Positions 24,045 through 48,259 of a stretch of DNA of 64,000 nucleotides are shown here, piece after piece. Below the pieces are notes generated by a model, which saw only the letters and a list, made by a program, of their open reading frames with translations, did no database searches and was not told the origin of the DNA. Position numbers and translations under genes: made by a program. The DNA is taken from assembly GCA_015501605.1 (NCBI GenBank), contig JADNRZ010000048.1, positions 1 through 64,000 of the forward strand. The letters are read 5' to 3'. The stretch comes from Panaeolus papilionaceus (Eukaryota > Basidiomycota > Agaricomycetes > Agaricales). Position 1 is the first letter of the stretch. Every line of letters begins with the position of its first letter.

Positions 24045-24050
24045 GATAAC
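24045..24050 (+). repeat. Target-site duplication of the 16.6-kb element (GATAAC), left
   Basis: GATAAC precedes the TATGGTGC terminus and is repeated exactly at 40677-40682. Confidence 0.9.
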
Positions 24051-24146
24051 TATGGTGCACCGTTTGCACAAATATTATTTGGTCCTTTCATTTCAAGTAT
24101 TTTTAGTAGTCTATCTAAACTTTTGTAACTACATGATGAATCTAAA
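24051..24146 (+). repeat. Left TIR of the 16.6-kb element
   Basis: Starts TATGGTGCACCGTTTGCACA and ends ATGATGAATCTAAA. It differs from the right copy at three positions. Confidence 0.9.
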
Positions 24147-24149
24147 TTT

Positions 24150-24362
24150 CTCTTGGGCGCTTTCAGTACTCATCTAAAAATCTCTCAGGCGCTTTCAGTA
24201 TCCATCCATCCATCTATTGAGCGCTTAACATATTTTTCAAACATTTCTCGAGCACTTGTGTAAATATTTGTTACATTGACACAAATTCAATGCCTCTTCA
24301 AACATTTCCTGAGCGCTTACAAGGCAACAGTTCATTTGTAAAAAAAATATGAGCGCTTATAT
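24150..24362 (+). repeat. Left subterminal GCGCTT repeats
   Basis: Six copies of a (G/T)(G/A)GCGCTT(A/T)-like motif occur at about 24155, 24188, 24219, 24249 (AGCACTT variant), 24311 and 24351, spaced about 30-60 bp. Inverted counterparts sit inside the right TIR. Such arrays just inside TIRs commonly bind a transposase or its partner. Confidence 0.65.
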
Positions 24363-24946
24363 AGATTAATAGTAGACATAGAAATGGAGCCCGAATAATA
24401 GAAACTATACTGAGATTTAATTTTTCTATCTAAATATTTGTACATTATCGCGCCATTGATCGGAGTTTCAATATACCACAGCATGAAAAGCGGAGCTTGA
24501 AATAGACATCAACGATGTCAGCGGAGCTCAAAATATATGAAAAAAGGCCCGCCCTAAACAATCGAGACCTGATATCGCTCACACAGGCATATCATGTTTC
24601 CTTTTCTCCCATCACAACACCAACATTATTAATAGCCTCGCTCATGTTTAAGTAGAATCATAGATAGATAATTCAGATAAAATACAAACCTAATAAGCAA
24701 TTAAGGAAGATCCAAAGCTCAGCAACTTGCATGCCCTGCCCTCAGAAACGGAAGTGGCAGGCAATGGTAAGGATGGATGGATAAAGGCACACTCACAAAT
24801 GCCTGACTCAATCAATCCTTCCTTGCCAGAATGAAGAAACCGACTCGCATGGGATCATATGGCAAGAGCCTACCAGGAAGGTGATTACAGTTAGTTGATT
24901 CAGCAAATCGACTTGTAATGACAAAGACCAACTACTAGATGACCTG

Positions 24947-27458
24947 ATGGGCGAAGAAATTGATGCGGAAGGGGAGGAAGCAGACGACGATGCGGAAGGG
25001 GAGGAAGAAGATGACGATGTGGAAGGGGAGGAAGAGGACAATGATTCGGAAGGGGAGGAAGATGACGACGATGCGGAAGGGGAGAATGATGTTGACGATG
25101 AGGAAGGTGGGGACGACAACGACAATGCGAAAGGGGAGGAAGACTACGACGAGGACGACGAGGAAGGGGAAGAATCCAAAGAGAGTTTGAAGGGCAAAGC
25201 AGATAAGGGAAAGCGTAGGGTCAATCCCTTTATAGACGATGAGGCTGCAGGAGGGGAGACATCGGATGATGAAGACGATAACGTTGATTCTAACGTCTTT
25301 GTCAACGATGATCAAGATGAAGATTTACCTGAAAACCACCTTGGTATGTTGTTTTATAGATACACTTGCTCTGGTCCTGATACACAAGTTTTAGAAATTC
25401 ATGCGCAGTTTCTACAAACTGAAGATAGCGAAGCTCGTCTGTACTGCTGGGATAGGTTGCTAGACAGGGCATATGAACAAGTGAGGGGTGGTGAACCTTG
25501 GAGGTCTGCTCTGGATTATGATGATGGTAATGACGACGAGTACATCATATCCACCACAGACTTGCTCTGGGTTGTACCCTGTAAGGTATGTTTTTCAGCC
25601 TCTTATTTCAATTTTATTGCTAACTAGTTCATCTCATCGAAAACTACAGGCAGGTCATGAAGAGGAAGCCGTCGTCACCATATTCTACTGTGCCACCAAC
25701 CCATTGTCGCCCAACTCCGCAGGGCCATCGGCTATGTTCAATCCTTCACATCCTGGCTGAATATATGTCGAGGCTCGGAGTGAGGGACTCGCCAGAGCTA
25801 CTGTAGATGGAATCCCTACTTTATCACCTTCACAGTTACGGGTGGTGCCACATGGAGAATGTTGGCGGTGTCTTTCTCATTCTCCTAGACGTATCCCACT
25901 TTGGGTTTGTATCCGTGATTCTAGGCGTAAATGGAGGGCTGTCAATGGGAGTGTTGGTATCGTCGTGCCCAATCTCAATAGCGACGACCAAGAGGAGGTT
26001 TGGAACGTTATTGTTGCACACAAAGACCCCATGGAAGCGTCAGCACCCTGGTCATGGCAGTCGGTTAATTTCAACGATATTCATTTCACAATCAAGCTAG
26101 ATGAGCTACTGACAGTCAAGGACATCCAGCGATTTTCAGGATGCGACCTTGTCAACGAATACACACTCAGTGTGCTCTTTGAGCGCATTTACCGCACCAA
26201 TATACGTCCAGGGGCCTGTGTCATTGTGACCACCGGAGAGTTTGTGGGGATGATTGGAGAAGTGGTCATGTCGTTGGGTACAATGGCTGAACTCAGATTT
26301 GAAGATGGTACATTAGAGCCTGTGCTACTCTGCGACCTACGTCGGAATTTTGTGGTTGGTGACCAGGCGGTCATTTCTACCCTACTGTGGAGGGGGATTA
26401 CGGGCTGGGTGATCAACGTTGAAGTAAAGCACATCACCATCTGGTCGGAATCACTGCAGAACGAGGTATGGTTACTCTTACTTTTTTTTAATCGCACACT
26501 CATAATTTATGCCAATAGTATCGAGTAGCTGCTATTGAAGCAGAGTTCTTCACGCCTTCCTTACGACATATCGCCTCCCTACCCCCAAGAATTAAACATC
26601 GGAACATCACGGAGTTCAACATATATGAGCGCTTCAAGGGCAGGATGGTGTACATTACGGGCTGCCACCCCCACAAAGGCCAACGAGGACATATCAAAGA
26701 CGCCCATCCTGATGGACGATTCTGGATTCAAATGGAATCCATGTTGCAGAGAAATGAACCAACTATCTTCAAGCACTCCGATATATCTTTAATGTAAGTT
26801 GTCTATAAACTCTCTAACCGGCTAGACTCAACATCTAATTGCTCAATGCAGCGAAGAGATAACGGAGAATTTGCTTCCGATACCTCAAAATCGTTCCAGT
26901 GTTGCATATTCAAAACCGATCAAGGCACCATTCATATCCCCAGACTCACAAACGGCGTCCAAGAGTGCAACCGATACCAATGACGGTGGACCCAGCGGCT
27001 CACAGAGTCCATGCTCACAGATTAAAGACCTCCCTGTTGTTGATAGTTCAACCACCTTCCCCGAAACGGATCCAATAGAGCCAGCTTCAAATGTTGATCC
27101 TTACTGGCTTGTTGAAGCATGCTTCTCGCACAGGATCAAGCTTGCTCATGTCCATGATCTGAATCACATTGTCCAACTTCTTGGGAGGGGTTCAGCATCT
27201 GGGCACATCCAGGTGCGCGATCATATGGTGGTGCAGGAGATTCCATCAGACACTTTGACTGTGTTACCGCCAAGTCGTAAAGACAATGTCGTTGTTGTCC
27301 TCTCTGGCGAACATGTAGGAAAAATGTATAAAGTAGTTGAGGTTTTTGAGTCTGTTTCACAGGTCAGGAAGCCGGGACGAGTTCTACGCAAAGGAGAAGT
27401 CAACCCCACATTTCCTAATGACGTGTTAGTGCAGGCGTTTGGACCCTTCAAAAAGTAG
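24947..27458 (+). pseudogene. Spt5-like protein (acidic N-terminus, NGN-like and KOW domains), one in-frame TGA
   Basis: Exons 24947-25585, 25650-26465, 26519-26793 and 26852-27458 join in frame. The N-terminus is a run of acidic repeats (EGEEEDDD), as in Spt5, the elongation-factor partner of RNA polymerase II. An NGN-like part follows (LLWVVPCKAGHEEEAVVTIF...IYVEARSEGLARA). KOW-like units follow: GACVIVTTGEFVGMIGEVV, GRMVYITGCHPHKGQRGHIK and VVVLSGEHVGKMYKVVEV. A TGA at 25758-25760, just before IYVEA, interrupts an otherwise open frame and probably replaces CGA or TGG. The gene is the leftmost one inside the 16.6-kb element. Host Spt5 genes are much longer and essential, so this is read as a TE-borne relative; a function in transcribing or targeting the element is only inference. 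Exons upstream of 24947 may exist. Confidence 0.75.
24957..25170 (+). repeat. Imperfect ~30-bp coding repeats (acidic)
   Basis: The string GAAGGGGAGGAAG recurs about every 30 bp and encodes EGEE-DDD units at the start of the Spt5-like protein. Confidence 0.7.
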
Positions 27459-27469
27459 TAAACACAGTA

Positions 27470-29300
27470 CACTTCCATTTAGTTAATTTAAATTTATTAT
27501 AATGTCGAGACGCTTGTAGACCTTTTTTCTTTTTTTATAATTATTATATGTGCAATATGTCGTTTTAATTTAAGACCACATGTAAGCTATTGGAAAACTA
27601 ACGACTTGAACAGCTCGGCACCTCTAACAAAGCTCTATCGACTATCTGAAGCAATCTACCAAAAGTGTACGTACTAAGTCTATCTAATGGAACGCCAACT
27701 TGATCTCATTTTCTGTCTCTTTATATAGGTCATCCTCAATGTCAAGTCCAGCCATGCGAATACGCAATTCCGTCAGGGCTAGCCTTCGGCAGGCGTTAGG
27801 GTTGATAGAATTTTCAGCTAAGACAGGTAGGGAAGTTACAGTGTAGTGACTTTGTTGATCCGTGGACTAGCTACAACGTAATGACTGAGTGTGATCCATG
27901 GATCACCATGGATTTCCTACATTCTGGGTAAGTAAGGTTATATAATTAGTTCATTAGATATAGTATCAATGTAATAAATAAATACCAGATGAGCGGAACG
28001 GGTGGGGGTAGGTAGAGAGATAGCGGATGGGGCGCGGGGGAGGGGAGGGGAGGGTGGGTGGGTGGGTGGGTGAATGGTGGATGGAGCATGGGAGGGGGTA
28101 GGTGGGGCATCAGGTTGGGATGAGCGGAAATGAGGGTTAGTGGATTGGTGAATTGGGCGTGGCGGAAGGGTGGGGCAAGTGTGGGGATGTATGACTGGTA
28201 GATGGATGGTTGGACGCGGAGTGGGAGGTAGGGGATTATGTTGGGAAAAGCGGAATGGGGAGGGGGAGGGAGAGTATGGATTGGATGCGGCGGAGGACTA
28301 GGGTGGAAAAATTGATCGTTGGGAGGTGATTGGGAAGTAGGGCACGGAAGGGGTGGGGGGAGGAGAAATAGGTTCGCGTAGATGGGTCAACAGGTCGCTC
28401 TGAAATATCCGCGGAAATGTTAGATTTAGAGAAAAAGTAGATGTTGGTAAAGAGAGAGTTTGTGAGCTGCAAAATGGGTAATGCGATACCTTGTAAGAAA
28501 CTAGTAGGATTGGGTGGGTGCTGAACCCGCAGTGGCGGAATATATTAAATGAAATGGTAGAAGAAGCCGCGATGTTGACTCGGCGGCGGAGATGTGTATG
28601 GGATCTAAGAATCCGCGTCAGTGGATTCGAGGCCCAACAAGGACTCCATTCTGCGGGATATGCCTGAACAAGTGGGTCCAAAAAAAAGAAGCCTTCCGCA
28701 GATATGCTTTGCAAGAAAATGTTATAAATGAATATCGGAATAGGCCGCATCGGTGGAAGCTAATCAACTGAAACGAGTGCCCCGCCGTTACCGCGGCATC
28801 AGTCATTTTGCAATATATGGCTATGCTGCAAGATTGTTTCCGTGGCGGGTCATTGTTGTTGCAATCACAGTGGCACAACCAGTCTGCAGGATCGCATAGA
28901 ACATTAAGCACCCCCGATACATGGGATATTTCGCAGATGTTACGGAAACATATGCCCCTCTGTTACCGCGGTATCGGTCATTGTGCAATATATTCCTACA
29001 CTGCAATGTTGTTTCCGCGGCGGGTCATGGTGTTTACAGCCACAGTTGCACAACCATCCCGCGGGATTGTATGTACATTACGAAAGCATGATTATCCGAA
29101 GCCGTGAGGCTTATTGAAAATATTAATAGAAATCATGTATCCATCACGTGTTCCGCAGGTAGTCACAACGTGTTCATCGTGGCTGGGCATCTGCGGATTC
29201 CTTTGTCAGCTTGTACACGTCAGAACGTGTATCCCTTTCCAACTTGATCCTTCCTGTTGCATACCATCAAACACAATCCCGCAAGTGAACTCTTCAATCC
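27470..29300. other. Non-coding spacer with G-rich minisatellite and a tandem duplication
   Basis: No convincing gene is seen. 27990-28480 is G-rich, with (GGGT)n at about 28049-28072 and repeated GGATGG/GAGCGGAA strings. From about 28770 to 29090 a segment of roughly 170 bp is duplicated in tandem: GTTACCGCGGCATCAGTCAT then GTTACCGCGGTATCGGTCAT, and TGTTTCCG(T/C)GGCGGGTCAT in both. Short CCGCGG palindromes occur in each unit. Confidence 0.55.
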
Positions 29301-29301
29301 C

Positions 29302-31776
29302 ATGGACGCCAAACTTTCCACCCTCGAAGGATATCTTCTATCTTTGCGCGATTTACTGGAGCCGAAGCAGCTCTCCGTTCTTCACTGATACTACAGTGAG
29401 ATGGTATGTGGCTCGGCGGATGCATCAATTATATTTTCCTACTAATTGTTAAATGCATTCAAAGTATCAAGCGATCGCGGAAGTTGGAGCGAACAAAGCC
29501 CTGCTACCCAAACTATCACAATGGCCTCTGAACGATGTGTTTCGTGTTGTGCAGGAAGCAGCCAAGAACCCGAAACTTACCAGTTTTTCGCCGGGGTTTT
29601 CATTGAACGAGGTGATCGATTCCCTCCGCCCAACAGTCATTACAGTGGAAGAAATACCGTCTGCGGAACAGGATCACAACATGGAAGAAGCCGCGGCATC
29701 GGCTGAGCAAATTTCGAGGTTGGAACAGGCAGCATTGGAGCGGGCTCGACGGAACAAGCAGTTGAAGGAGGAAGCAGATGCTCAGAAGCAGAAACGAGAG
29801 GGTCAACCTGCTGGGAAAGGCAAAGGAAATGATGAGAAGGGAGAGGGAAAGGTAGTGACAGGTGGAAAGCACAAAACACAACAAGAGCCATCCCCTGTCA
29901 GCGATGCTGCCATCGAACCCCACCAGAAGCCTACAACGGGAGGTGAGGAGTCAAGCGCGGAATCTGATCCTCCATCGGTCCCAACCTGCCGCAGCGACAA
30001 ATCGAAGGGAAAGGGTAAGGCAACCGTGGAGGAATTGGACCAGCATATTCAGGAAGTGAAGGCGAGGGTCATCTGTCTGCCGCCGCGCTTAGAAGATGAA
30101 GACCTGGCTGAACAGTTGGCCAAGATCCGGAGCTACCAACCTCGACCACGTGGAGAAGGTACATCCAAAAACGTTGCATCATCCGAAGGTGAGGAGGATA
30201 GGATGGAAGGGGTGGTTGAGCAAGCGGAGGAGAAGGTGGAGGGCGACGAGGAGGACGAGGAGGAAGAAGAAGCAGAGGAGAAATCGTCCGCGGAAGCAGA
30301 AGAAGAGCCATCGGATGAGACGGAACCTGCAGCCGCGGCTGTAACACCGGGAGGCATCGTGATTCCCGAAGGCGCTCACATTGCCCCTCCCCCTGCTGAT
30401 GGGACTGTTAAAGGATGGGCAGGGAAGATTGCTTCTGTGAAGGTCAATGTCCCAGGGTGTGCCAAGTGTCAAATACAAGGCAACAAGTGTTACGTGAAGT
30501 GGGATGATGGTCCCATAGAGGGAGCGTGCCACCACTGCAGCCGCCATCATATTTCCTGCTCGCTCAGTAAGCGGACCTCAAAATCTTCCAAGGAACCCAA
30601 GGAACCCAAGGAACCCAAACCACCGAAAGCGCTGAAAGGACCAAAACCGAAGGAGAAGAAAGCCGCGTCCGCAGGTAAAAACAAAGACAAGAAGTCCCGT
30701 AGCGCCGCGACGAAATGTAAGTGCTCATTCAAAAGTTGAACTCCGACGTTGCTGACCAGAAAGTATGATTAGAATTAGCAGCACGTCTCTCTCAAGCTCA
30801 CGGCATCATTGAGAAGCTTGAAGAGTGAATTTCAGATTTAGAATCTGGATCTCTGGTTGAGTCGCTGCACGCAACCTGCGCCGTACGGAAGGAACTTGAG
30901 CAGGCCGCGAATAGGAACTTAGCGGAAATTTCGAAGGCCTACGAAGAATTGCGTGTGGCCCATAACGAACTTCGAGGGCACGTTCTTGCCCTTGGACGCA
31001 CAGACCAATTCCTCTTCAACAATATCAAGGCCGCGTTGATGGGTATGCGCTCACACCTTCCTTTGGAGTGGCGGGGTGCAGATCCAAAGGTGAAACCAAC
31101 TCAGCTCAATCTCAGAGATTCTGCAGGGGAGCCCATTCAACACCGCATTGCAAATCCCATACTCGGATTCGCGAAGTATTCTCTTCCTCCTCAAGGTACT
31201 GTAATAAGCCGCGATGGCCCTTGGCCTGAAAAATACGCAACTGGGTTCCTGCTTGCTAGAACGGGGGAGATGTTTCCAGTTCAGCCATTGAACCCTCAGC
31301 GTCCAGCGACAGCCACCCCAGAACAGGTAGCTCAGTCCCTTGCGGAATATCGAGCCCGAAATCCAACTGCAGCAAGTGCGAGCGGACACCGTACTCCCCA
31401 AGCTCAAGGTGTGTTAAATTCAGCAGGACATCGTGTCTCACCGAATGTTTTGGCTCCTCCTCGTTCTCCTACGCTTCGTCAGGCTTTCCCAGTTGCACCG
31501 ATGACGCCAACCCCACTGCAAGCACTACGAAACCCGCAGTTGGCGCCCTCAGTCAGTACCGGATTGGGTTCCAAGGATGGACCAACAGCCCAATCATCTA
31601 CTGGGCAGGAAACGGGTACCACTGATCCTGAGACCGCGGCGGACGATTCTGGTCCAATGGATGTTGATGAACCACAATCCGTTCCCACGGATAGGACTCG
31701 TGCAAGGCGATGTGCTGCTGAAAAAGCGGTGCGTGGGGCTAAACAGGGAAGAGGCTGCGGCAGAGGGGGAGCTTAG
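29302..31776 (+). pseudogene. Zn2Cys6 coiled-coil protein of the 16.6-kb element, two in-frame TGAs
   Basis: Exons are read as 29302-29403, 29465-30718 and 30780-31776. The start is MDAKLSTLEG. The middle is a long charged region (glutamate/lysine-rich, coiled-coil prone). A binuclear zinc cluster follows at about 30456-30560 with exact fungal spacing C-x2-C-x6-C-x12-C-x2-C-x6-C (CAKCQIQGNKC ... CHHCSRHHISC). A lysine/proline-rich basic linker, a second coiled coil (HGIIEKLEE-ISDLES) and a proline-rich tail complete it. In-frame TGAs at 29386-29388 (LSVLH-YYSEM) and 30826-30828 (KLEE-ISDL) sit where arginine fits. Zn2Cys6 clusters bind DNA in fungal transcription factors; here a role in recognising element DNA is inferred. 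A homologue in the same gene arrangement lies at 50182-52116. Confidence 0.7.
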
Positions 31777-32050
31777 GGCCTGATATTTCGTTTGTGCTCT
31801 ACACATATTTTGGATTTTTTGGACTTTAGTTGCATACCTGATACACTCGATTTTGGACTTTTACATGCATGATTTTGGACTGTTGCTTCGTATCTTTTTA
31901 CTATTTTTGTTACCTTTTGGACACTTGTTACTTATATGGTTGTATTTCTTGTTGGACTTTTTATTTGATTGACACTTGTTGAATGGAGTTCCATATATAT
32001 GACATTTGAATTCAGGAAAAGAGCAATACATTGTATGAATGGGTGACAAG

Positions 32051-34195
32051 CTAAAGGGTACTGGTTATGTTGCTCACAATGACAGGAACTTTGCTCGGAG
32101 TCTTGTGAGTGCAACGACCCCGCGGATGATCATTCTCCATAGGCTGAGAGGCTTGCTCAATCCCGCGGGCTAGCAGTGCTTGCTTATCTGTGATAGGAGA
32201 TGATCCTCCTGCGGCAGGGCTCAACATCTTCTCTTTGACGTTTCGAGGTCGTTTCGCACTCTCAATAGGTGTAATGAGATGGCTCTTTGTGCCTATTATT
32301 CTAGCCAGCGTTAACTGCTCTTCTTCCTTGCTTATGGGTGTGACTTCGGTAGGCATTGGTTCAGTTGTCGTTGACCCATGACTCTCCGCAGGCAACACCA
32401 CTGTGAGATCATTTGCTGCATTTCCCATGGCGCTGTTCGAAAATAATGTTGGTGTATCCTGTGGCCTTGTCATGGTATGAGGAGTTGGTTTCACAAGCTT
32501 GTTTGGGAGGAGCAGGTTTGGAGAGCTGAGGGTGGGTCCTGGATATCGCGATAGCATTGCACCACTTGGGTTATCGTCCTCTTTGTGAGCTTTGCTGTGT
32601 GTTTGGAGAAATCAGAAAGAGTGCTGTGGTCCGAGGTGATCCTGACAGGTGGTAACATGTTCAAAGAATGTATTAATGATCCCTTGATTTGTGTTCTGTG
32701 CATCCTTCAACTTTCCAATGAGGTCTGTTGTTACATACACTTCGTGGAAAAATTCATGTGGATTGTTGTTGAGAGCTGTCCAGGGAACCGGTGTTTGATC
32801 ACCACGTCCACTGCGGGCCAAATCTGAACACCCAAACAAATAAGTGTGAGACCATCAATAAATGAGTACGTGTATACCAATATACTCACCATAGTGGGCT
32901 TTCATAAACTTGGCATAGTACTTGTTTTGTAACTTCTTATTGAGATTCGATGGCCATGGTGATGGTAAAATAGGAAAACCTTCTTCGGTGATCTTCACAG
33001 TTCTGTCCATTGCACCGTCTCGGAGCTGACTTGCTGCAAGCCGATAACGAGCTAAACAGGCTTCGTCTGACTCTGGGACTGAAGCAGAGGGTCGGGTATT
33101 GCCATGTTCCGCCGCGGCGGAAGACAATCCGTCCACAGCATGAGGTTGTGATTCGTCCTTCCGATTGACCGACATTCGACTTTTTATGGATAATAATTTT
33201 TGCACGTATTTTTCAAAGACATTCGCCAAATCGTTCAACTCGTTAGGGAACGTATCCTCGAAGGATTTTGTGTTCATGCCTAAAAGTTCCCTGGCGTGGT
33301 CATGGCTACAACTCATCAACTTCATATCCGCCGCGCCGGACTATGATAAAAACTTACAATTGAATATGAGTCTGACCCTCTTGATCCATGAAGACGGACA
33401 CTTGTATGGACAGCGTTCCCATCTCTATGTGCTGTAAATGAGCCGCCTGCTGCATGCATTGGTTGCATCGTTTCATGTAGATCCTGTGGTTGTAGCCTGA
33501 ATTAGTAGCTTCTTCAATTGAACTATGCAACAATGTATACCTTTCCTTGACTTCAGGTGTGTACCCAACAATCTTCGCTTCTTCAATTTTATCCTCCAAG
33601 TCCTGAAGCTCCTCGTCGTTCATATCCTGCAAAATGTTCCTCACTGCTTGATGGCGGTGTTTTGATATCAACCCCATCATCAACTCCTCATCCTCTTCCA
33701 ACATTCCGCGGATTTTCGTAATGACCGCCTTCCGCTCCGTATTGTAGATGTAGTTTGATTTTGTGATCCTCAGCGAAGGGGCCTTCAGTGGCGCCGTTGC
33801 GATGACTGAGCGCCAGTTTTTGCGAACATAATTTTTGATCAACTGTGAGCGCCCGCCATCACTGTCAGACAAGCTTTCAAATTTATGTTTTTCAGATGAC
33901 TGACCTCATCCCACTTTTCAACTATCCCATCGGGTTCCACAATGCAATCGGTCAAGCCTTTCCCCCTCCAATAGGCCTGTAGTCTAGGATTGACATGGTT
34001 CTCAATGTACTGTCGCCGGCCCACATAGTTCTTTCCAGGCATTGATCGATAAGCACCCTTCAAGTCATATATAAGCTTGCACTCCTCCACAGTGAAGTGT
34101 TTAGCATCACGACATGGTTTTCTGTGGTTGGGTTTCCGAGATGGGGGTTTGATTGGTGCTTTCTTGCGAAGTGGTGAGGTTGATAGTCGTGACAT
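32051..34195 (-). CDS. TE-associated hypothetical protein, convergent partner of the Zn2Cys6 gene
   Basis: The multi-exon gene starts at ATG 34195 (MSRLSTSPLRKKAPIKPPSR). A basic N-terminal block (HFTVEECKLIYDLKGAYR, then GRRQYIENHVNPRLQAYW) is followed by KNYVRKNWRSVI, an acidic helical stretch, NELNDLANVFEKYVQKLL, EEGFPILPSPWPSN, PVPWTALNNNPHEFF, and a serine/proline-rich tail. The frames at 33839-34195, 33354-33872, 32855-33325, 32612-32839 and 32051-32557 are probable exons, but some borders (notably near 33870) are unresolved. No catalytic motif is seen. It converges on the Zn2Cys6 gene with about 275 bp between stops. The left end of the palindrome lies only 14 bp upstream of its ATG, so its promoter now is palindrome sequence. 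A C-terminal relative is at 52788-53450. Confidence 0.55.
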
Positions 34196-34208
34196 GGCAC
34201 TACTAGCT

Positions 34209-35815
34209 GCCAAAATTCTTAAGAACTACTGATCTGTTATCGGTAACCCTTCTAACCAGCTACCAGACGAATTCTTATGCATTCTCATAAGTAATCACTG
34301 GGATATTTCTTACTACAATTATAATAGATATTCTTATATTGATTGCTTGAACGATTCTTATACATTATTATGATTATCTCTGCAATTATTATGGTGATTC
34401 TTATGACAATTCTTAGGCATTATTATGCTTATCTACATGATTCTTATAGTGATTCTTATGGTAATGCTTACAGCGATTCTTATGTGATATTTTAATACTC
34501 TACTGATAATATTCTAATAGATCTGATTAATCAGGGTTCTTATCTTTATCTATATCTGTGCTATATATGGAAACCCCCTTATCAATGCCATCAATATTTA
34601 TTTTCCCCACCATTACTGTAGCATTTATTACACTGCTTTTCTGGCCACTTTATATGGACATATATATACCATTGGAAAGCTACAATCGCCTACTATTTGA
34701 TTCTGAATTTTATTCAATTTAATTCCTGCAGGGGAGCAGCCCATTTAGCTGCACTTTTCCCATCAATTTAGCCCCTATTCATTTATGCTACCATTCCTGC
34801 TGCATTTGCACCGCTTTTTTGGCACTTTTCCTGGTGCACATATATACTATTAGAAAGCTCTAATTGTCTAGCTTAAGAATCTGCCCTTGTTTTTACAACA
34901 GCCCCACTAGGGGCTGCACTATTTAGCTGCGCTTTTTTGGCATTTAATTAGCCCCTATTATGAATCAGCATTGTTCCTGCTCCATTTTGCACTGCTTTGG
35001 TGCAATTATATATGAACATATATATATCACCAGAAAGCTACAAATGCCTAGATTAAGAATCTGAAATCAGATCATAAATGTTGTGTCTAGGGAGGGAGCA
35101 ATTGCATTTCGCATTTGGGCTATTAGAGCGTGGGAACACCCTTGATCACCTCTTCTCCTCCTCCCCCCACCGCTTTTCTGCCTCCATTTCTCCACATCCA
35201 CTCCACCCCTTGGCCTATAATTTGGCATGCATGTGTAAAATATGTATTATAAACGCTGTGCAAAACAGGAACGCAAGGGGACCGCTACAAATGCAGCTAT
35301 TCTGCATTTACCCTGTTTTGCTTCTATTTCTGCCAAAAGAGGACCCAATAGTCCCCTATAACTTGCATTTTCAGTGGGATGAAGCAATTTAAATATGTTA
35401 TAATATCACCACTATTGTTCTGTACCATGTGTCATGTGTTCACAGTTATGGATCATATAGAAACAGCCATATACTGTCTCACAAGTTCCCCAAATACTAT
35501 ATTGGGTATATCTCCACCATTTCTGACCGCTTTGGAAGGGCGAAAAATGTTCTGAAATCACCTCAGGAATACCTACAAAACAAGGATACTCGCAGCAAAT
35601 TATGAGCACTTCTCAAAAATGACTGTTTTTCAGCTGATAAGCCATTTGTACAAGATCTGTATTGAAATAATTTAATCAGACCTCATAGAGACGAGGGTAT
35701 ACACTATTATTGATGTTCACAAAAGGTTTGAGAACATTTGAGTGAGTGTGGAAGGCTGGACACACAAATGGGTGCTAGAATGCAGGTTGATGTAGCGTCA
35801 AGGCACAATGAACTA
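34209..35815 (+). repeat. Left arm of the palindrome
   Basis: Reverse complement of 35889-37495 with the same length of 1,607 bp. Confidence 0.85.
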
Positions 35816-35888
35816 ATTGAGCTCAAATATTGGTTAAGAAATGCGAATGATATTGGTTTAGAAACAAAGGGCATAACCTAGTTGTTGT

Positions 35889-37495
35889 TAGTTCATTGTG
35901 CCTTGACGCTACATCAACCTGCATTCTAGCACCCATTTGTGTGTCCAGCCTTCCACACTCACTCAAATGTTCTCAAACCTTTTGTGAACATCAATAATAG
36001 TGTATACCCTCGTCTCTATGAGGTCTGATTAAATTATTTCAATACAGATCTTGTACAAATGGCTTATCAGCTGAAAAACAGTCATTTTTGAGAAGTGCTC
36101 ATAATTTGCTGCGAGTATCCTTGTTTTGTAGGTATTCCTGAGGTGATTTCAGAACATTTTTCGCCCTTCCAAAGCGGTCAGAAATGGTGGAGATATACCC
36201 AATATAGTATTTGGGGAACTTGTGAGACAGTATATGGCTGTTTCTATATGATCCATAACTGTGAACACATGACACATGGTACAGAACAATAGTGGTGATA
36301 TTATAACATATTTAAATTGCTTCATCCCACTGAAAATGCAAGTTATAGGGGACTATTGGGTCCTCTTTTGGCAGAAATAGAAGCAAAACAGGGTAAATGC
36401 AGAATAGCTGCATTTGTAGCGGTCCCCTTGCGTTCCTGTTTTGCACAGCGTTTATAATACATATTTTACACATGCATGCCAAATTATAGGCCAAGGGGTG
36501 GAGTGGATGTGGAGAAATGGAGGCAGAAAAGCGGTGGGGGGAGGAGGAGAAGAGGTGATCAAGGGTGTTCCCACGCTCTAATAGCCCAAATGCGAAATGC
36601 AATTGCTCCCTCCCTAGACACAACATTTATGATCTGATTTCAGATTCTTAATCTAGGCATTTGTAGCTTTCTGGTGATATATATATGTTCATATATAATT
36701 GCACCAAAGCAGTGCAAAATGGAGCAGGAACAATGCTGATTCATAATAGGGGCTAATTAAATGCCAAAAAAGCGCAGCTAAATAGTGCAGCCCCTAGTGG
36801 GGCTGTTGTAAAAACAAGGGCAGATTCTTAAGCTAGACAATTAGAGCTTTCTAATAGTATATATGTGCACCAGGAAAAGTGCCAAAAAAGCGGTGCAAAT
36901 GCAGCAGGAATGGTAGCATAAATGAATAGGGGCTAAATTGATGGGAAAAGTGCAGCTAAATGGGCTGCTCCCCTGCAGGAATTAAATTGAATAAAATTCA
37001 GAATCAAATAGTAGGCGATTGTAGCTTTCCAATGGTATATATATGTCCATATAAAGTGGCCAGAAAAGCAGTGTAATAAATGCTACAGTAATGGTGGGGA
37101 AAATAAATATTGATGGCATTGATAAGGGGGTTTCCATATATAGCACAGATATAGATAAAGATAAGAACCCTGATTAATCAGATCTATTAGAATATTATCA
37201 GTAGAGTATTAAAATATCACATAAGAATCGCTGTAAGCATTACCATAAGAATCACTATAAGAATCATGTAGATAAGCATAATAATGCCTAAGAATTGTCA
37301 TAAGAATCACCATAATAATTGCAGAGATAATCATAATAATGTATAAGAATCGTTCAAGCAATCAATATAAGAATATCTATTATAATTGTAGTAAGAAATA
37401 TCCCAGTGATTACTTATGAGAATGCATAAGAATTCGTCTGGTAGCTGGTTAGAAGGGTTACCGATAACAGATCAGTAGTTCTTAAGAATTTTGGC
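35889..37495 (+). repeat. Right arm of the palindrome
   Basis: Canonical orientation: the centre-proximal sequence (TAGTTGTTGTTAG...) and the order of segments match the dispersed copy at 6024-7340. The three internal repeats begin near 36640, 36825 and 37005. Confidence 0.85.
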
Positions 37496-38950
37496 AACTA
37501 CGAGTCGATCGCCTATCTGACTGGTTATCTACGATCTCATCACAAACTTCGTATTCAACGTGCAAGGACCTGAGCTGCTGTGTGTAATGTGGACACTGTA
37601 GGAGCAACACTCAGACAACAAGCTGCATCCAAGATGCCCCAAGGACACTATCATGTCTCAAGGCCACATGCTTTGTGGCATATCGACAGCCACCACAAAC
37701 TCATTAAATGGGGATTTGTTATTCATGGTATCATTGACGGTTACTCTCGAAAGGTCAGTTAGCAGACATTTTACACTTCTTTAATGTCTCATGTCTTTAT
37801 CGCAGATAATTGGGCTCAGGGCCAGCACGTCTAATTCAGCAGACTCAGTGTTGAGCATGTTTCTTGACTCTATTTGGGAACATGGCATCCCCTCTCGGGT
37901 GAGGGGAGATCGAGGAGGGGAGAACCGTGATGTATCAATTACCATGATTAGATTTCGTGGACGGAATCGCGGCAGCTTTTTATGGGGACCCAGTGTTCAC
38001 AACATGCCAATTGAGCGGCTTTGGTTTGAGCTAGGGCGTCGGTTCTGTCGGGTCTGGAGGGTTTTCTTCCTTCGTCTGGCTCGTCTTCATCATCTCGACA
38101 AAGAAAACCCTCTCCATTGTTGGCTGCTTGATTACTTATTCCTTGACATGATCAACGAGGATGCCAGGAGATTTGTAGAGGAATGGAATGCGCATCCAAT
38201 GTGTAATAGAGGTAATAAGTGCCCAAACGTAATTTCATTTCTCCTCCAAATTCGCCAGACAATCCGATGCTAAATTTAATGAAACAGGATCTCGAAGTCG
38301 AAGGGATGATCAAGTATGGTGTTTACAATAACTCTACAGGGTCATTCACGTTTGGCGATGAGTGCAATGGCCTATCTGTGGACGAAATACATCAATTTTA
38401 CCAGTATAAGAAAGAGAGCGTGGGTAGCGGAGATGAGGCACAGTCGGATGACAAGGAGCTAGAAAACGACATCACTAACAAAGCCGACGCTGACTCAGAC
38501 GATGAACCCTCAGACGAAGAAGAAACATGGCCATACAGTGATGAAGAGCTTGAAGACCATGACCACTGCATGAGCGCAATGGACGACGACAACGAGATCC
38601 AAGACAGTGACGATGAAGCAGGATACGACGTCAACCCTGCCAAGGATGTCGACCCCAACATCAATCATGAGGCTGTTGATGTTCCACAAGGTAATTGTCC
38701 CTTCAGCAATGCAGCACTTGCCGTTTTTAAGACGTGTATTGAGAGCATTTACCAAGACGGACATATTCCGCATGGATATAATGTTCATGCGGAAGAATGG
38801 GAGGATGGCTATTATTCGGAAACTGAAGATCTACCAATTGGGGGATCGCAGAAAATTAAAACTGTGCAGCTGCCCAACCACATTTGGTTACCTAGGTCTC
38901 GATTATGGGTGCAGGCGTTATGTTTATTACAAACATCTGAAATCCTTTAG
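37496..38950 (+). pseudogene. DDE integrase (rve-type, D-x34-E), 5' part missing, one in-frame TGA
   Basis: Exons are read as about 37496-37753, 37806-38211 and 38259-38950; all joins keep frame. The N-terminal remnant (YESIAYLTGYLRSHHKLRIQ) is followed by TGA at 37571-37573, probably from CGA, then [11 protein letters not shown] and the catalytic core. The core has D in [10 protein letters not shown] (37685-37687), D in RGDRGGEN (37908-37910) and E in NMPIERLW (38013-38015), so 34 residues lie between the second D and [12 protein letters not shown] and GSFLWGPSVHN are family blocks of the integrase-core proteins common in mushrooms and some animals. A C-terminal WNAHPMCNR and an acidic region follow. 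The helix-turn-helix N-terminus usual for the family is absent; the palindrome ends directly at the first preserved codon. This is the likely transposase of the 16.6-kb element or a relic of it. Confidence 0.8.
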
Positions 38951-39010
38951 ATAAGTTAATTATATTTATTCGTTGTATATATAGTTCCTGAACATGAGTG
39001 TTTCTGGCTT

Positions 39011-39669
39011 CCTTAGTAGCCGATGGACCCTACTCTGGCGCTGTGATGCGGAACATTGCTATCTCAGGCAATCAGCGTGGTGGAGAAAACGAAGGCATTA
39101 TCATTGGTGAGTAATTTTCATATTTCTTTATCAATTTCATGTTTTAACGTTATCGTCTAGTCTCAACAACCAAAATCCGCATCTCTAATGACGACGATTC
39201 AACCGACTTGGAAGATGAGCCCACTGCACCTTCAGCACAATCTTCGAGATTATCCACGACGTCTCACAAATCAGCAATGTCAGGATCATCTTCCACTCAA
39301 CAACACCACTCAGCACTGCCCTCGACTCGCCAACTTCGCTCACGGCTTCCAAAGAAGGTCGAGGTTATCTCAAGTAAGCACCCTTTCCCCTGCTGCTTTG
39401 CTTGTGTGGACGCTCATATATTTAAATCATCAGTTACTGATGACAACTCGGACACCAAGTCCTTCGGCTCTCTGGATTTGCAGGGTACTGAGCCATCATA
39501 CAGTCGTGCTGGAAGTCCTGCGGGTGATCTTGATCAGTTGTTTTCTGAACGCGGAGTTAATTTCGAGTTTGCTCATCACGATGTCAACATGCACGACTGT
39601 CAGCCAGAGCTTCCTGCCAAAGCTGACTACTGCTGGTCATCCTTAAGCAGATTTTTGCCTCGTTTTTGA
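39011..39669 (+). CDS. Downstream exons, hypothetical (possibly 3' end of the integrase gene)
   Basis: Frames reading GPYSGAVMRNIAISGNQRGG (about 39030-39105), STTKIRISNDDDSTDLEDEP (about 39162-39375) and VTDDNSDTKSFGSLDLQG...DYCWSSLSRFLPRF (about 39430-39669) are separated by intron-like segments (GTGAGTAATT...CGTCTAG; GTAAGCACCC...ATCAG). They are serine-rich and acidic with no recognised domain. They could be C-terminal exons of the integrase gene or a separate small gene. Confidence 0.4.
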
Positions 39670-39829
39670 CTTCATCACATGCATTGATAACAGGCATATT
39701 CCGTAGTTTATCCTTTCGTATAATTGTATAGAAACATTTCTCTGTAGTACAATGGTAATTACATCCAGCCCTTGCATTTACATCCCCTTTTGGGAGACTC
39801 ATTCCCTGGATTCTCTTTGCTTATCCGTC

Positions 39830-40012
39830 TCCTCATCTCCTCACCATCCTTATCTCTCTCTCCCTTTGTCTTCGCACCGATCCTTATCCCTCTCTCTCTC
39901 CCTTTGTCTCCACACCGATCCTTATCCATCTCTCTCTCTTTGTCTTCACACCAATCCTTATCCCTCTCTCTCTGTTTCATCACCAATCCTAATCTCCTCT
40001 CCCTAGTCTTCT
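39830..40012 (+). repeat. CT-rich minisatellite, about 35-38 bp units
   Basis: Four to five units share CACC(G/A)ATCCTTATCC, CTCTCTCTC and TTTGTCT. Confidence 0.75.
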
Positions 40013-40398
40013 CACCACCCCTTTACCATATACCCAAACTCGCCCCCTCTCTATTGTTACATACACCTTCTTCAACTTAAGTGTTATGTTGTAGTAGATT
40101 TTCTTGGGGCTTTTTATCAATAGATCATAATTTTCGTTGTAAAATGACTTTGGGTGTGATGAGTGTGACTGGAGTCATGTAACTGTGAGCAGTGACAATC
40201 AATTAATATTCCTTATAGTACTTATCTACACCTTCAAAGTCCGACATTTGTGCTGTGAAAGCCGTTTTCAGACTCCAACAGCATAATCTTTTTGTAGCCT
40301 TTTATCAAAGTAGTAATGAAACTTTTGAAATATTGACCTTCTATTCTTTACAATGTAAACATTAAAAGATGTTTGACATGTTCATACCCTGCTGCATT

Positions 40399-40576
40399 AA
40401 GCGCTCAAAAATGTTTGCAAACTTGTGGTAGGCGCGCAAGGAATGTTGAAGAAGATGAACAGGTTATGAAAGATGTTCAATGTTCAATGTAAGCGCCGAA
40501 AAGATGTTTGGACTTTGAATGTAAGTGCCCAAAAGATGTTTGCAAATTAACTTACATTTCTCAGTAGATGCCCAAA
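40399..40576 (-). repeat. Right subterminal GCGCTT repeats
   Basis: Inverted motifs AAGCGCTCA (40399), AAGCGCCGA (40492), AAGTGCCCA (40523) and AGATGCCCA (about 40566) face the left array at 24150-24362. Confidence 0.6.
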
Positions 40577-40580
40577 AGTG

Positions 40581-40676
40581 TTTAGATTCATCATGTAGTT
40601 ACAAAAGTTGAGATAGACTACTAAAAATACTTGAAATGAAAGGACCAAATAATATTTGTGCAAATGGCGCACCATA
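40581..40676 (-). repeat. Right TIR of the 16.6-kb element
   Basis: Reverse complement starts TATGGTGCGCCATTTGCACA; 93 of 96 bases match the left TIR. Confidence 0.9.
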
Positions 40677-40682
40677 GATAAC
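40677..40682 (+). repeat. Target-site duplication of the 16.6-kb element (GATAAC), right
   Basis: Exact copy of 24045-24050. Confidence 0.9.
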
Positions 40683-40697
40683 AGGGACGACACTCAC

Positions 40698-41504
40698 CGT
40701 TCGTACTCATCAACCCATTTCTCAAATCCAGTCTCAATCTCCCAGATCTCTTCTGCAGTTATTTCAAGGTCAATACAGAGCTTGAGGAGACGAACAAGGT
40801 CAATAAAGTGCTCGTAGTAGCTGTTGTCCGGGAAGCGATCACGAAGAATGATTGGTGCAATGTGAAGGGTCCAGTTCGAGTACATTTCCGCTGTCATATA
40901 GTATTGCTGTGTTGCCAGGTTCGGTACAGGGGCGCCAAATACTGATGGTATTGTCCAGCTGCTTAATGCTGATGCAGCTCCAATAGCAGACCAGTTGTCA
41001 GTGTTAATCACATAGCCCATGTTCATGTGGTCGAGATCCTTGAAATCCTTCTTCCAAAACCGGATAAGGTTGGGGATTAAGTTTTCCCATATAAGGTGCA
41101 TGAAGTCGAGAGGAAAGGATTCGGGGAAGTAGATAGAACTGAGAGAACTGAGCAAAGGCCTTCCCTTGATGCCATACTTCGTGGTGAGCTCCTCCCGATA
41201 TATGTTTGTCGTTGCTGTTTCAAGGTCATCCACATGGTCCATAAATTGTTCGTGATTTCGGTATGGTAAGCTTGGCGCCCAATAGTTGTCCCCATCCAAA
41301 CCCCTGCGGCAAAGCGGCAGGTAGTTCATGTGCCCAGTACCTGTAGTGCCTTCAATGAGGCAGATGTGGCAGGGCGAGACTCCATTCTGCCCTTTCATCT
41401 GCATCATCATGGAGACTGCAGGTATGTCACCAAAGGCAAGTAGTAGATGGGTACGGAGTGTGAACAGAGTCTTAGAACTGCCGTTGAAGGCTTCAATGCC
41501 TGAC
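40698..41504 (-). CDS. Plavaka-like transposase, central exon
   Basis: The exon reads IEAFNGSSKTLFTLRTHLLL, AFGDIPAVSMMMQMKG, the cysteine block SPCHICLIEG, then LPLDFMHL-type and IPSVFGAPVPN segments, ending EKWVDEYER at a GTGAGT donor. The order (GD.PA...MKG, PC..C, DFMHL, P..FG) is that of Plavaka/Tnp-2 type transposases. It continues at 24012 after the 16.6-kb insertion. The 5' part of the gene stops being recognisable at about 41505, where sequence ending ...CCGTAACA (minus strand) abuts; this looks like the end of an LTR or other insertion. The gene is therefore 5'-truncated as far as I can see. Confidence 0.8.
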
Positions 41505-42050
41505 TGTTACGGTTGACTTGTTCAGCACGTACAAGTCTGGCCGTAGAGTCAACAAGAACGAGGTTCGAAGGCGAAGTCGGAGTCGGTTCGGTGAGTTATG
41601 TTGGCGTTCGAGAATATCTAACTAAGAATGCCACTTCGAGTGATCGCTCGATGGTATTGTCTTAGCAGAGAGTGAGTAAAAGAAGTCCAGTAGAAGTTAT
41701 CGTTCTATTGTAGTTAAAGAACTAGCTAAAGAACATGGGTATAATACTAGGGTTTATATATGTAATACTGGTGGTCTGTGCGTAAGATAAATAAGAGTCG
41801 GGAGACGGGGTGAAGGAGTCATAATGGAACGTGTATGGGAATGTAAAAGAGAACGAGTCATAAATGTGAGAGAGGAATGAGTCAGAGATAGGAATAAGAT
41901 GTGGAGCGACAACGGGGATGGAGGTGGAGTGGGAAGAGGAAAAGATAAGAAGATAAGACAAGCTACAAGTACAAAGAGAGATGATAGTATACGAAGATAA
42001 GATAATAGTCCACATAGGTAAGCTATGCATCAAGAACTGAGTTAATCCAT
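41505..42050 (-). other. Possible LTR-derived sequence (minus orientation)
   Basis: On the minus strand the stretch has a TATA box (CATATATAAACCC, about 41750) and ends CAACCGTAACA next to GTCAG at the transposase exon. This resembles a solo or partial LTR. The other end and a matching GTCAG were not found. Confidence 0.3.
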
Positions 42051-42099: not shown

Positions 42100-42790
42100 T
42101 TGTGCAGTTGGGTGGTAGGTGGGTAGGGAGGGTAGGCAGCGGGTGGTGGGTAGGTAGTGGGTGGGTGGTAGCGGGTGGTAGTTGCGTGGCAGGTGGGTAG
42201 GTAGCAGGTGGGCAGCGCGGTGGGTGGTAGCGGGTGGGCAGCGAGCAGGCGGGTGGGGGTAGTTAGGTAGGTGGGTAGGTAGTGGGTGGGTGGTAGGTGG
42301 GTAGGTAGCGGGTGGGTAGCGAGCAGGCGGGTGGTAGTTGGGTGGCTGATGGGTAGATAGCAGGTGGGTAGCAAGCAGGCGGGTGGTGGGTAGTAGGTAA
42401 CGGGTGGGTGGTAGGTGGGTAGGTTGCGGGAAGTGGGTAGGTTGCGGGAAGTGGGTAGGTTGCGGGAAGTGGGTAGGTAGCGGGTGGTGTGTAGGTAGCG
42501 GGTGGTAGATAGGCAGCGAGCAGGCGGGTGAGTGGGAACAGTGAATAACAGACGAGCAGTGGTTGTTAGGCATAGCAGGCGAAGTTGGTGGTACATGATC
42601 AGCAAGCAGCCGAGTAGTTCAGCAGCCGAACCAACCGCAAGCACAGAAGGGTGGAAAGCGAGCAGGCGGATGAGTGGGTGGGTAGCACCAAGCGCAAGCA
42701 CAGGGGATAGGGGTTAGCTGGACAGCGAGCAGGCGGGTGAGTGGGTGGGTTACGAGCAGGCGGATGGCAGGTAGCAGGCGGGGTTGAGCG
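42100..42790 (+). repeat. G-rich minisatellite (GGGTAGGTAGCGGGTGGTA-like units)
   Basis: Irregular units of GGGTAGGTAGCGGGTGG, GAGCAGGCGGGTGG and GTGGGTGGTAG. An exact 18-bp unit (GTAGGTTGCGGGAAGTGG) is repeated three times at about 42418-42475. No gene is supported; the frames here are repeats of simple sequence. Confidence 0.75.
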
Positions 42791-45380: not shown

Positions 45381-48259
45381 CTACATTGGTGACTGGTATT
45401 GAGAATTGACTGTTTTAAAGATCATGTCTGCATGAGTTGCGATCCGCAAACAAGCATGCTGTTGGCAGTATGCATAGCAACTGGCCGGTTTGGATGTTTT
45501 TGGATCAAGAGCCGCCCGCTTCCAACCCTCTGCACGATACAAAAAATATCACACAACCCAAGCCATTTCATGTGTGACTAACTCAACCTCTTCCTCCCAG
45601 CGTTGGCACAGTGCCCGTGCACACAGCCAATGCACGCGCAAAACTGATCAATTTTGACCATGAGATGGGTTCTATGAATGTGTAAATGAAGAACCTACAT
45701 TCTTCCGTAGCAACCGAGTCCAATGAATTCCGATCTTCCTGCCCAAGCTGATCAGGTGCACATGCTAGCAGCTGCGAACGCCATATCCAAGACAAAGCTT
45801 TTGAAATCCCACGTGAACTAGTGGAATTCCCACTGACCATCAGGCTACTTGCTTGAACATCTTTGTTGTTCAATTCCTGGAATATGTGCAGGGTATGATG
45901 ATCCGGATTAAGCTTGAGAAGTTTGTTGCAGCTGTTTCTGTACAATTGTGCCATTACTTTGACGCGTGTTTCCAACTGCTGTGTCTTCGCTTGCGAACGT
46001 GTCTTGACTCCACTTGATGGCTTGTTTTGCATGACATGCAAAAACTCGAGGGAGCGCTCAACAACAAGATCACAAATGCCTTTCAAGAGACTCTGAAGGT
46101 GTTGAACTCAGCAAGCACACTCAACTGAAGTCTGTTGAGCATTTACATTTTTGTTGGAAGGAAGGAACAGAGTTTTGTGCTCTGGAAGGCCGTCGGTGAC
46201 ACTGGGAGGTGGGAGATCGGCCGGTGCTGCTTCATATAGGACTCCACCCTTGGCTTCAACAATCTGTAGCTTGCCTAGCATTGTGCGCAACTTTTCGCGT
46301 TCTGCTTCAAGCTTTTCAGCTTCAACACCTGTGCTGTCTTTTGTTGCTCTCTGCGCAATTTCCACCACCTGGGATCTACACGAAGAACCATGTTTCAGTG
46401 CACAAACATTATATAGATCAGGTACCACATACTGAGCATCCTCAACAATGAATGCAAAGTTGAGATACTCTTGAAGATCTGAGCTAGCACTGGCAGGCAG
46501 AGCAGCTGGTAGCGATAGCTTCATCTTGTTGGAATCTGCACCATAAATATCCATGACAGCTGGTTCCTCCAAGCGCTTTGACTCTGCCTCCTCAATAGCA
46601 GCTGTCCACGCCTGAACATGCTGGTGACATTTTTGGCTGACCTCTGCAAAGACCAGCTTATGTTCGGCTGACATTGTCTTAGCAAGCAAATACTTCTTCC
46701 GTAGGGTCTCGGGCATTTGCAGCGTCCGTTTGTAGTTCAAGTCACTGGTGTAGTCATCCAACCCTTCCACTCAACCCACCTGGTGTCCAGTACGGAGTGC
46801 CCAGGAATGTTTGTTGAGAACAGACCAGTTGGTTTCCATGATTTCTCCATCAACAATGCCAAGCCCTGGAATAAACGATGGAGAATATCTGAAATAGCAC
46901 TTGTCCTTGTGGGCATGGATATGGAACAATCCAATCGCCCAGTCGATTTCCAAAAGCTCCAGACCATGCTCAGCCAGCATCCCGTCAATTTGCGTCCGTA
47001 GGTGAATAGAATACTGACAAGCAATGTCGTACAAAATTGTGACACGCTGCTTGACATCAACATTGGTTCGAACTAGAGCCTGAACGAAGGCATAATCAAC
47101 ATTTTTTTGCTGTTCTCCCTTGTAGAGATCCACAAGCCCATTAGGACAGTAAATGCCATGGCAGGTGCATGCAATGCCAACAACACCTGTCATATCACAG
47201 ACTTTGCTTGCTGTCAAGGATGCTTCAATGGCTCGGAATGTGTTTTCACATGGTGCTTTCTGTTCCAATAATTAGAAGCTTGTCAACCCAGACAACCCTC
47301 CAAGCTTACCATGCAGGTCTCTGTTGCCTTTTCAATGTGATTTTTGTAAGCATCAGAGTGAGGCATCATGCCTCCACCATCATACAATGGTGTCTCATCT
47401 GCTCGCGTTGCAGCCGAAATGTGATCTGCCTTGAAGTTCCCATCTGCAACAAATGAGCGGCTGTAGACTATCTGGTTTTTATCGCTCTTCCAATCTGCTG
47501 GCAAGTTAATGCCAGGCTGAGGGCATGCTGCACAGAAGTTGGATAACTGTCCAGCAGCCGGTTTTAAAGGATCTTGCGTCAAGTGGCCGAATCCCGCCCA
47601 TTTAAGCTTCTTCATCCAACGATCCAGTTGAAGCATCCAATGTAGCAAGTGATACAAGTCATCTGCAAGAATGTAGCCCAGTGGCTGCGTTTGTCTAACC
47701 AGTAATTGATGTATCTGGTACACAGATGCTGCAAGCTCCAAATTGGCAAGTTGTGCAAAGTCCAACAGCTTCCTGGTGAAAAGTGTATTGACCTGAGAGA
47801 AGCTTGCTGGCATGAAACCAGCTGCAACAAAGTCTCCAAATGTTTTAGACTCTCCTTGACATGAGCACCACAGAAAATTGATTTGGTGGTAGCTGTTTGT
47901 GTGGGCAACTCGCATCAAGCCAGATGGTTGACGAACATCAGGATCAATGACTTCAACCTTGGATGCTTTTTGGCCCTCAAAAGCAGCCGCATGCTGGTAG
48001 AGAAACTCCTCTGGCCGGATATAATTTTTGAGGCCGTGCGCTCGATACACCTGCTCCATTTTCTTGTCAAACTCAATGTCTGCATGAATTCAGCTTCAAG
48101 GGTGACATCACCTTCCATTCCGTCCTCTGTGTCATTGATCCCCTCCTGGTCCTCATCGGCTTGTTCCTGTGCTTCCATCCGTTCATAGTCTTCCTGCTGC
48201 ACCTCCCTTTGCTTGCCCTTCAAAGAAGCCTCGGTTGCACCCTTGGCAGTGCCAGGCAT
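45381..48259 (-). pseudogene. KDZ transposase (Kyakuja-Dileera-Zisupton superfamily), three in-frame TGAs
   Basis: The frame starts near 48259 (MPGTAKGATE). It continues through KKMEQVYRAHGLKNYIRPEE, a CxC2-like block (NFLWCSCQGESKTFGDFVA) and the catalytic core: FVADGNFKADH (first D), TILYDIACQYS (second D, about 47020) and IVDGEIMETNW (E, about 46840). Its C-terminal helices include NKPSSGVKTRSQAKTQQLE and LCQRWEEEVELVTHEM, ending near 45381. Introns fit at about 48120-48089, 47300-47245 and 45690-45645. TGA codons at 46771-46773, 46108-46110 and 45549-45551 interrupt otherwise open frame at probable arginine positions. KDZ transposases cut and paste DNA with 8-9 bp duplications; I could not locate the element ends. 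Confidence 0.82.

Follow-up and report, generated by a model that had tools for sequence, protein, structure and literature searches.

A 64,000-nucleotide stretch of the Panaeolus papilionaceus (Agaricales) genome, positions 1 to 64,000 of contig JADNRZ010000048.1 and hereafter called the window, very probably contains a decayed copy of a DNA transposon of IS3EU type whose relatives carry a gene for their own version of Spt5, a reading that takes the identity of the element and its gene set together. The better-preserved relatives, located by searches of the 50.85-Mb assembly in which the window is part of contig C43 (135,913 bp), encode a set of genes in fixed order, namely a Spt5 paralogue, genes on the reverse strand, a transposase with the Pfam domain PF24764, and a further gene referred to here as gene 5.

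The element was originally predicted as a 16.6-kb transposon with 96-bp terminal inverted repeats (TIRs) and 6-bp GATAAC target-site duplications (TSDs), and its ends are as described: the two arms (Table 1) are inverted with 97% identity over 96 bp (E 3.5e-39), and GATAAC is present on both sides. The first 100 bases of the element have 16 matches in the genome, six of which are the ends of three full-length copies, the other 10 falling in nine loci with diverged ends. Besides the 16.6-kb window copy, the full-length copies comprise one of 24.5 kb on C34 and one of 11.2 kb on C8, each with a TSD of its own. The C34 and C8 copies are 99.6-99.7% identical, and what C34 has in addition to C8 is a 13.3-kb insert (C34:1669468-1682732) with 410-bp inverted repeats at its bounds; because C34 carries this insert and C8 is uninterrupted, the C8 copy was taken as the reference. 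The native size of the element is about 11 kb, rather than the 16.6 kb first assigned to it. The window copy is ~97% identical to C8 in its right 3.2 kb and for the greater part of its left 3.8 kb, falling to 91% in the first 1.1 kb, a part that ends in acidic repeats of differing number. Positions 27825-37506 of the window are unrelated to the 3.1 kb that occupy the same place in C8. The window copy also lacks another 1.0 kb present in C8. The same genome holds a second family of 10.8-kb elements with TIRs of ~145 bp, found on C23 (TSD TAATTT) and C45, as well as short elements of 613-772 bp, which share the TIRs, begin with TATGG at the left end in all nine loci examined and are probably moved in trans. 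As a separate observation, the C34 insert holds a KDZ transposase match and lies in the C-terminal part of the IS3EU transposase, and 7 bp are repeated at its ends, as the alignment suggests.

Membership of the known IS3EU (IS3EU/GingerRoot) superfamily is well supported by features of the sequence. The transposase core, originally described as a D-x34-E integrase core, matches PF24764 (E 2.2e-36) with the predicted spacing of 34, and PF24764 is a family that we take to cover IS3EU. The window, C34, C8, C45 and C23 copies all have TATGG..CCATA termini, an exact 6-bp TSD is present in four of these five full copies, and the TIR lengths of 96 and ~145 bp both exceed 30 bp. The relevant passages of PMC10045372 give IS3EU elements TA..TA ends and usually a 6-bp TSD, and those of PMC12730594 (Kojima) give rust-fungus IS3EU elements TAYGG..CCRTA ends, which TATGG..CCATA fits, TIRs longer than 30 bp and a 6-bp TSD. 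The Panaeolus elements thus share with this Repbase superfamily the ends, the TSD, the TIR length, an integrase-like DDE transposase of the IS3/IS481 kind and the habit, in fungi, of carrying cargo genes. They differ in the cargo itself: the TET+ rust elements described in PMC12730594 carry an alpha-kinase and a TET/JBP dioxygenase, whereas a Spt5 paralogue, reverse-strand genes and a further gene are found here. The original prediction was right in proposing a large element mobilised by an integrase of this kind and equipped with a transcription-related gene of its own; its superfamily, however, already has a name.

The association of the Spt5 gene with the transposase extends well beyond the three full copies. 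The 36 genome matches to PF24764 form 18 loci if the partial match at C45:1884057 is assigned to C45:1887740. With any gene no more than 30 kb away in the correct order and strand accepted, a Spt5-like gene lies upstream of the transposase on the same strand in 14 loci, at a distance of 5.3-5.4 kb in eight of them and of 25 kb in one (C24). A reverse-strand gene stands upstream of the transposase in 16 of the 18 loci, the window copy being one of the two without, and gene 5 follows the transposase in 17, the arrangement seen in C8. The order and strand of the Spt5 gene are constant across the 14 loci, which include families down to 54% protein identity. Viewed from the opposite side, 10 of the 24 Spt5-NGN matches in the genome are followed within 13 kb by an IS3EU transposase on the same strand (binomial chance ~8e-21), and an eleventh is followed by one at 25 kb. 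Comparison of C8 with five other families, by a simple pairwise count on stop-to-stop open reading frames (ORFs) that possibly include some non-coding letters, gave ratios of nonsynonymous to synonymous change (dN/dS) of 0.05-0.29 in 32 of 44 ORF comparisons, the other 12 being saturated at silent sites. For the Spt5 gene, the ratio was 0.13-0.28 in the 8 comparisons, out of 13 on its three ORF pieces, that returned a finite value, and the reverse-strand genes and gene 5 fall in the same range. Neither the reverse-strand genes nor gene 5 has a Pfam match above the cut-off; because the structure model of the reverse-strand genes is also poor (mean predicted local distance difference test score, pLDDT, 48.1), they are left unnamed, and a BTB/BACK identity suspected by eye was rejected on the same two grounds.

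The predicted Spt5/KOW-like protein is real, and it is a true Spt5 homologue. Six of seven homologues match the Spt5-NGN domain above the cut-off, the seventh (P0001, 484 amino acids) being without a match to it, and the Pfam Spt5_N domain was matched by three of the seven, below the cut-off only. The NGN domain of the structure model matches 2exu, several KOW domains follow in the protein, and the C8 gene model has an acidic N-terminus of D/E-rich repeats. The exon limits given for the window were transferred by hand from the C8 model, and the start of exon 1 is uncertain. Host Spt5 (DSIF) likewise possesses an acidic N-terminus, an NGN domain and several KOW domains; the element's Spt5 differs from it by standing in a separate group of the Spt5 tree, and no C-terminal repeat region (CTR) was recognised by eye in the IS3EU-borne protein. 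A WG/GW-rich tail was likewise not seen by eye.

Such a conserved Spt5 paralogue is most simply read as an element-specific elongation factor. Bacterial plasmids and gene clusters offer a precedent in RfaH/ActX and LoaP, NusG paralogues dedicated to particular long transcription units; the comparison with these NusG/Spt5-family factors, which are bacterial, is an analogy. From the mechanism of the family, the transposase would bind the TIRs, excise the element and join it to a staggered target, joining at a staggered site being the reason for the 6-bp duplication. The element's Spt5 would meanwhile join Spt4 and RNA polymerase II, and might help those genes of the element that are CpG-methylated or heterochromatic to be transcribed. 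An anti-silencing Spt5 of this kind would be analogous to the TET/JBP enzymes of transposons, for which an action against methylation has been suggested. The fungal transposons with TET/JBP cargo treated in PMC12730594, which belong to KDZ, Plavaka, IS3EU and other groups, resemble the present elements in having a chromatin or transcription gene beside unrelated transposases, with a proposed role in countering silencing, and are unlike them in that the cargo here is a Spt5 elongation factor rather than a DNA-modifying enzyme. A role in the transcription of methylated or heterochromatic element genes is a tentative proposal, somewhat short of probable.

Other functions for the Spt5 paralogue can be weighed on the same evidence. 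Spt5 rides on polymerase II, and a paralogue encoded upstream of the transposase in 14 of the 18 loci could tether the element or its transposase to transcribing polymerase II and so direct insertion into open, transcribed chromatin; this is unlikely, because the short copies, too small to hold a Spt5 gene, nevertheless insert and produce duplications, although they may be helped in trans. A dominant-negative inhibitor that replaces host Spt5 or an Argonaute-hook protein (in plants, SPT5L/KTF1 is such a protein) and thereby blocks co-transcriptional silencing would suit a window copy that has decayed mostly at CpG, as well as a protein in which the CTR, and with it possibly its recruitment functions, may be lost; with no silencing partner known here and no WG/GW-rich tail seen by eye, it too is improbable. 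A neutral passenger of no use, acquired by chance, is a very unlikely explanation of the gene: transposons do pick up genes, four of the 18 transposase loci are without a detectable Spt5 match, and the window copy itself holds foreign genes, but the low dN/dS of the Spt5 gene, its constant order, strand and frequently constant spacing across divergent families, and the similar ratios of the reverse-strand genes and gene 5 all argue for a gene that is kept.

Two further interpretations concern the element rather than its cargo. The integrase-like enzyme and the 6-bp TSD had invited a parallel with Maverick/Polinton elements, which holds for those two features and no others: the termini are different, the uninterrupted C8 copy is 11.2 kb, and a Pfam scan of 10 of its ORFs (not every ORF) found no match to polymerase B, ATPase, protease or capsid, so that a Maverick/Polinton element or a relic of one was rejected as virtually impossible. 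The notion of a 16.6-kb family with four genes, as seen in the window, likewise retains almost no credibility: all four ORFs do lie between the TIRs, but 27826-37506 is in neither of the other full copies and is repeated elsewhere in the genome; it was rejected on the C8 and C34 copies, which share with the window the TIRs, the 6-bp duplications, the integrase and the Spt5-like gene, and lack the two other predicted genes.

These two genes, the predicted Zn2Cys6 coiled-coil and hypothetical ORFs, belong to a KDZ-type transposon fragment and not to the IS3EU element. Among the matches listed, the fragment is repeated elsewhere, whole or in part, with 93% identity on C23, 96% on C27 and 78% on C55, and all five copies that reach the point corresponding to 34197 have a KDZ transposase downstream on the same strand, 2.07-7.45 kb away (chance per copy ~0.01). 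Four copies were read on their right side, and in all of them the sequence continues beyond the break seen in the window; the window fragment is thus cut at 34197. The palindromic repeat that follows has arms 100% complementary around a 71-nt centre and relatives at many sites in the genome, from the closest of which it differs by ~2%; the near-perfect arms suggest recent conversion or an assembly effect. KDZ fragment and palindrome together stand where the transposase N-terminus and the reverse-strand genes should be. The window is rich in transposons in general, with a KDZ transposase match at 46735-47262 and a copy of an arm of the same palindromic repeat at 6027-7246.

The window copy is no longer intact as an autonomous element. 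The N-terminal part of its transposase, with a helix-turn-helix-like region, is lost, an in-frame TGA stands at 37571 in the remainder (CGA in C8), and the NGN exon of the Spt5 gene has a premature TGA at 25758, none of which had been noticed originally; both stops are of the kind that decay at CpG would produce. With this N-terminal loss, the foreign inserts and the decay at CpG, the copy could move only with an enzyme from another copy. Compared with C8 and C34, the window copy stands alone at 136 sites, of which C-to-T or G-to-A changes at CpG account for 90 and the reverse changes for 8; the observed/expected ratio of CpG is 0.74 in the window copy versus 0.96 in the same parts of C8. This pattern seems to fit slow loss of methylated CpG better than a burst resembling repeat-induced point mutation. 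In Agaricus bisporus, according to section 4.2 of PMC12730594, CG methylation is nearly confined to transposons.

The element interrupted a Tnp2/Transposase_21-like gene, and paralogues of this gene supply empty sites. When both flanks were joined by script and aligned to the genome, paralogues on C5 (80% over 1867 bp) and C24 (82% over 754 bp) aligned across the insertion point, as did five more distant ones with 64-66% identity. The C5 and C24 alignments have small gaps at the junction, where the hexamer is not exactly preserved, as is expected of paralogues so diverged. Close to the insertion site, at 42127-42745 of the window, lies a long G-rich array of imperfect GGTGGGTAGC-like repeats.

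Table 1. Features of the window copy and related loci in the Panaeolus papilionaceus assembly (positions without a contig prefix are those of the window)
Feature	Position	Strand	Details
Left TSD	24045..24050		GATAAC
Left TIR	24051..24146	+	starts TATGG
Spt5-like gene (acidic repeats, NGN, KOW)	24899..27458	+	exons ~24899-25585, 25650-26465, 26519-26793, 26852-27458
Premature TGA, NGN exon of Spt5 gene	25758..25760	+	CGA in C8; CpG-type change
KDZ-type transposon fragment (insert)	27826..34197		holds predicted Zn2Cys6 coiled-coil ORF at 29453-30739, together with most of the reverse-strand ORFs predicted as hypothetical; in neither C34 nor C8
Palindromic repeat, 3.3 kb	34198..37506		arms 1618 nt; inserted in or beside KDZ fragment
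Transposase 3' remainder	37507..38950	+	PF24764 catalytic core and acidic C-terminus
Gene 5 remnant and next ORF	38951..39669	+	C8 8551-9572 (1.0 kb) deleted at ~39018
Right TIR	40581..40676	-	ends CCATA
Right TSD	40677..40682		GATAAC
Part of interrupted Tnp2/Transposase_21-like target gene	40694..41506	-	Pfam match below cut-off, E 0.0081
Second full copy, same TIRs	C34:1661390-1685900		24.5 kb; TSD TACCAT
Third full copy, same TIRs	C8:271612-282853		11.2 kb (11,242 bp); TSD CACGTG
Short element, 7-bp duplication	C36 near 115039		ACACGAC
Short element, 7-bp duplication	C12 near 24226		TTTGTAC
Plavaka-adjoining Spt5-NGN loci	C4:1643053-1648199, C14:66470-71703, C14:535146-540816, C45:1899302-1905117		
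Seven other Spt5-NGN matches	C10:995774, C45:2418736, C26:431099, C17:284453, C33:74823, C67:1742667, C31:150001		no IS3EU within 13 kb, no Plavaka within 3 kb

Several observations weigh against the reading of the window as a decayed IS3EU element with Spt5-bearing relatives. The superfamily was assigned from termini, TSD, TIR length and Pfam rather than from a tree. The full copy on C45 (C45:2383606-2394425) is without a TSD because one flank repeats the other in inverted form, with 99% identity over ~1.9 kb, which may reflect either an assembly effect or a duplication, inverted about the element, and the duplications of the short elements are exactly 6 bp in six of nine loci, with 7 bp in two and none in one. 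No Spt5 match was found beside four of the 18 transposases, as noted above, and the structure model of the Spt5 protein has a mean pLDDT of 55.6. The empty sites are paralogues ~80% alike rather than the corresponding locus of another strain. Finally, methylation of the window copy is read from its mutation pattern, and CpG depletion is not specific to the element, the observed/expected ratio being 0.68 in the rest of the window, 0.91 in C8 and 0.76-0.93 in the other families; section 4.2 of PMC12730594 adds that hypermutation was not detected in Agaricomycotina.

Spt5 is likely carried by a second transposon, Plavaka, as judged by gene adjacency. In four of the 24 Spt5-NGN matches, a Plavaka transposase precedes the gene by 2.61-2.88 kb on the same strand; from score and spacing these are probably two pairs of copies, one pair sharing a 401-bp piece that is 99% identical between C4 and C14, and a simple binomial that treats them as two independent cases gives a chance of ~7e-4. 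Of the other nine matches, one is presumed to be the host gene, one on C64 is an orphan of IS3EU type, and seven lie elsewhere (Table 1). The Spt5 tree contains three supported groups, IS3EU, Plavaka-linked and host, with host sequences from other fungi and Plavaka-group sequences picked by similarity, not each shown beside a Plavaka gene; because it is unrooted and carries a long-branch warning, one capture of Spt5 and two captures are indistinguishable. Beyond host-type Spt5, the homologue searches returned Panaeolus proteins and, for the Plavaka-linked group, also one Pholiota protein and one further protein; scoring was in each search confined to the 7986-7993 candidates with most words in common, so the result does not speak to absence in other organisms.

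It is possible, though somewhat short of probable, that at least two unrelated superfamilies of mushroom DNA transposons, IS3EU and Plavaka, took up Spt5 and have kept it under selection as an element-specific elongation factor that maintains their transcription against silencing, in an arms race fought at polymerase II elongation and paralleling the TET/JBP enzymes of other transposons. Searches of open-access literature, outside which most subscription papers lie, yielded no report of a transposon-borne Spt5, which is no proof of novelty, and no eukaryotic transposon counter-measure at elongation was found in it. Should the element-encoded Spt5 prove to act together with polymerase II, transposons would encode a core elongation factor. 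These elements would also supply a natural, divergent Spt5, probably one whose loss can be studied in a host that survives it, and with it a direct way to ask whether transposons and silencing come into conflict at elongation.

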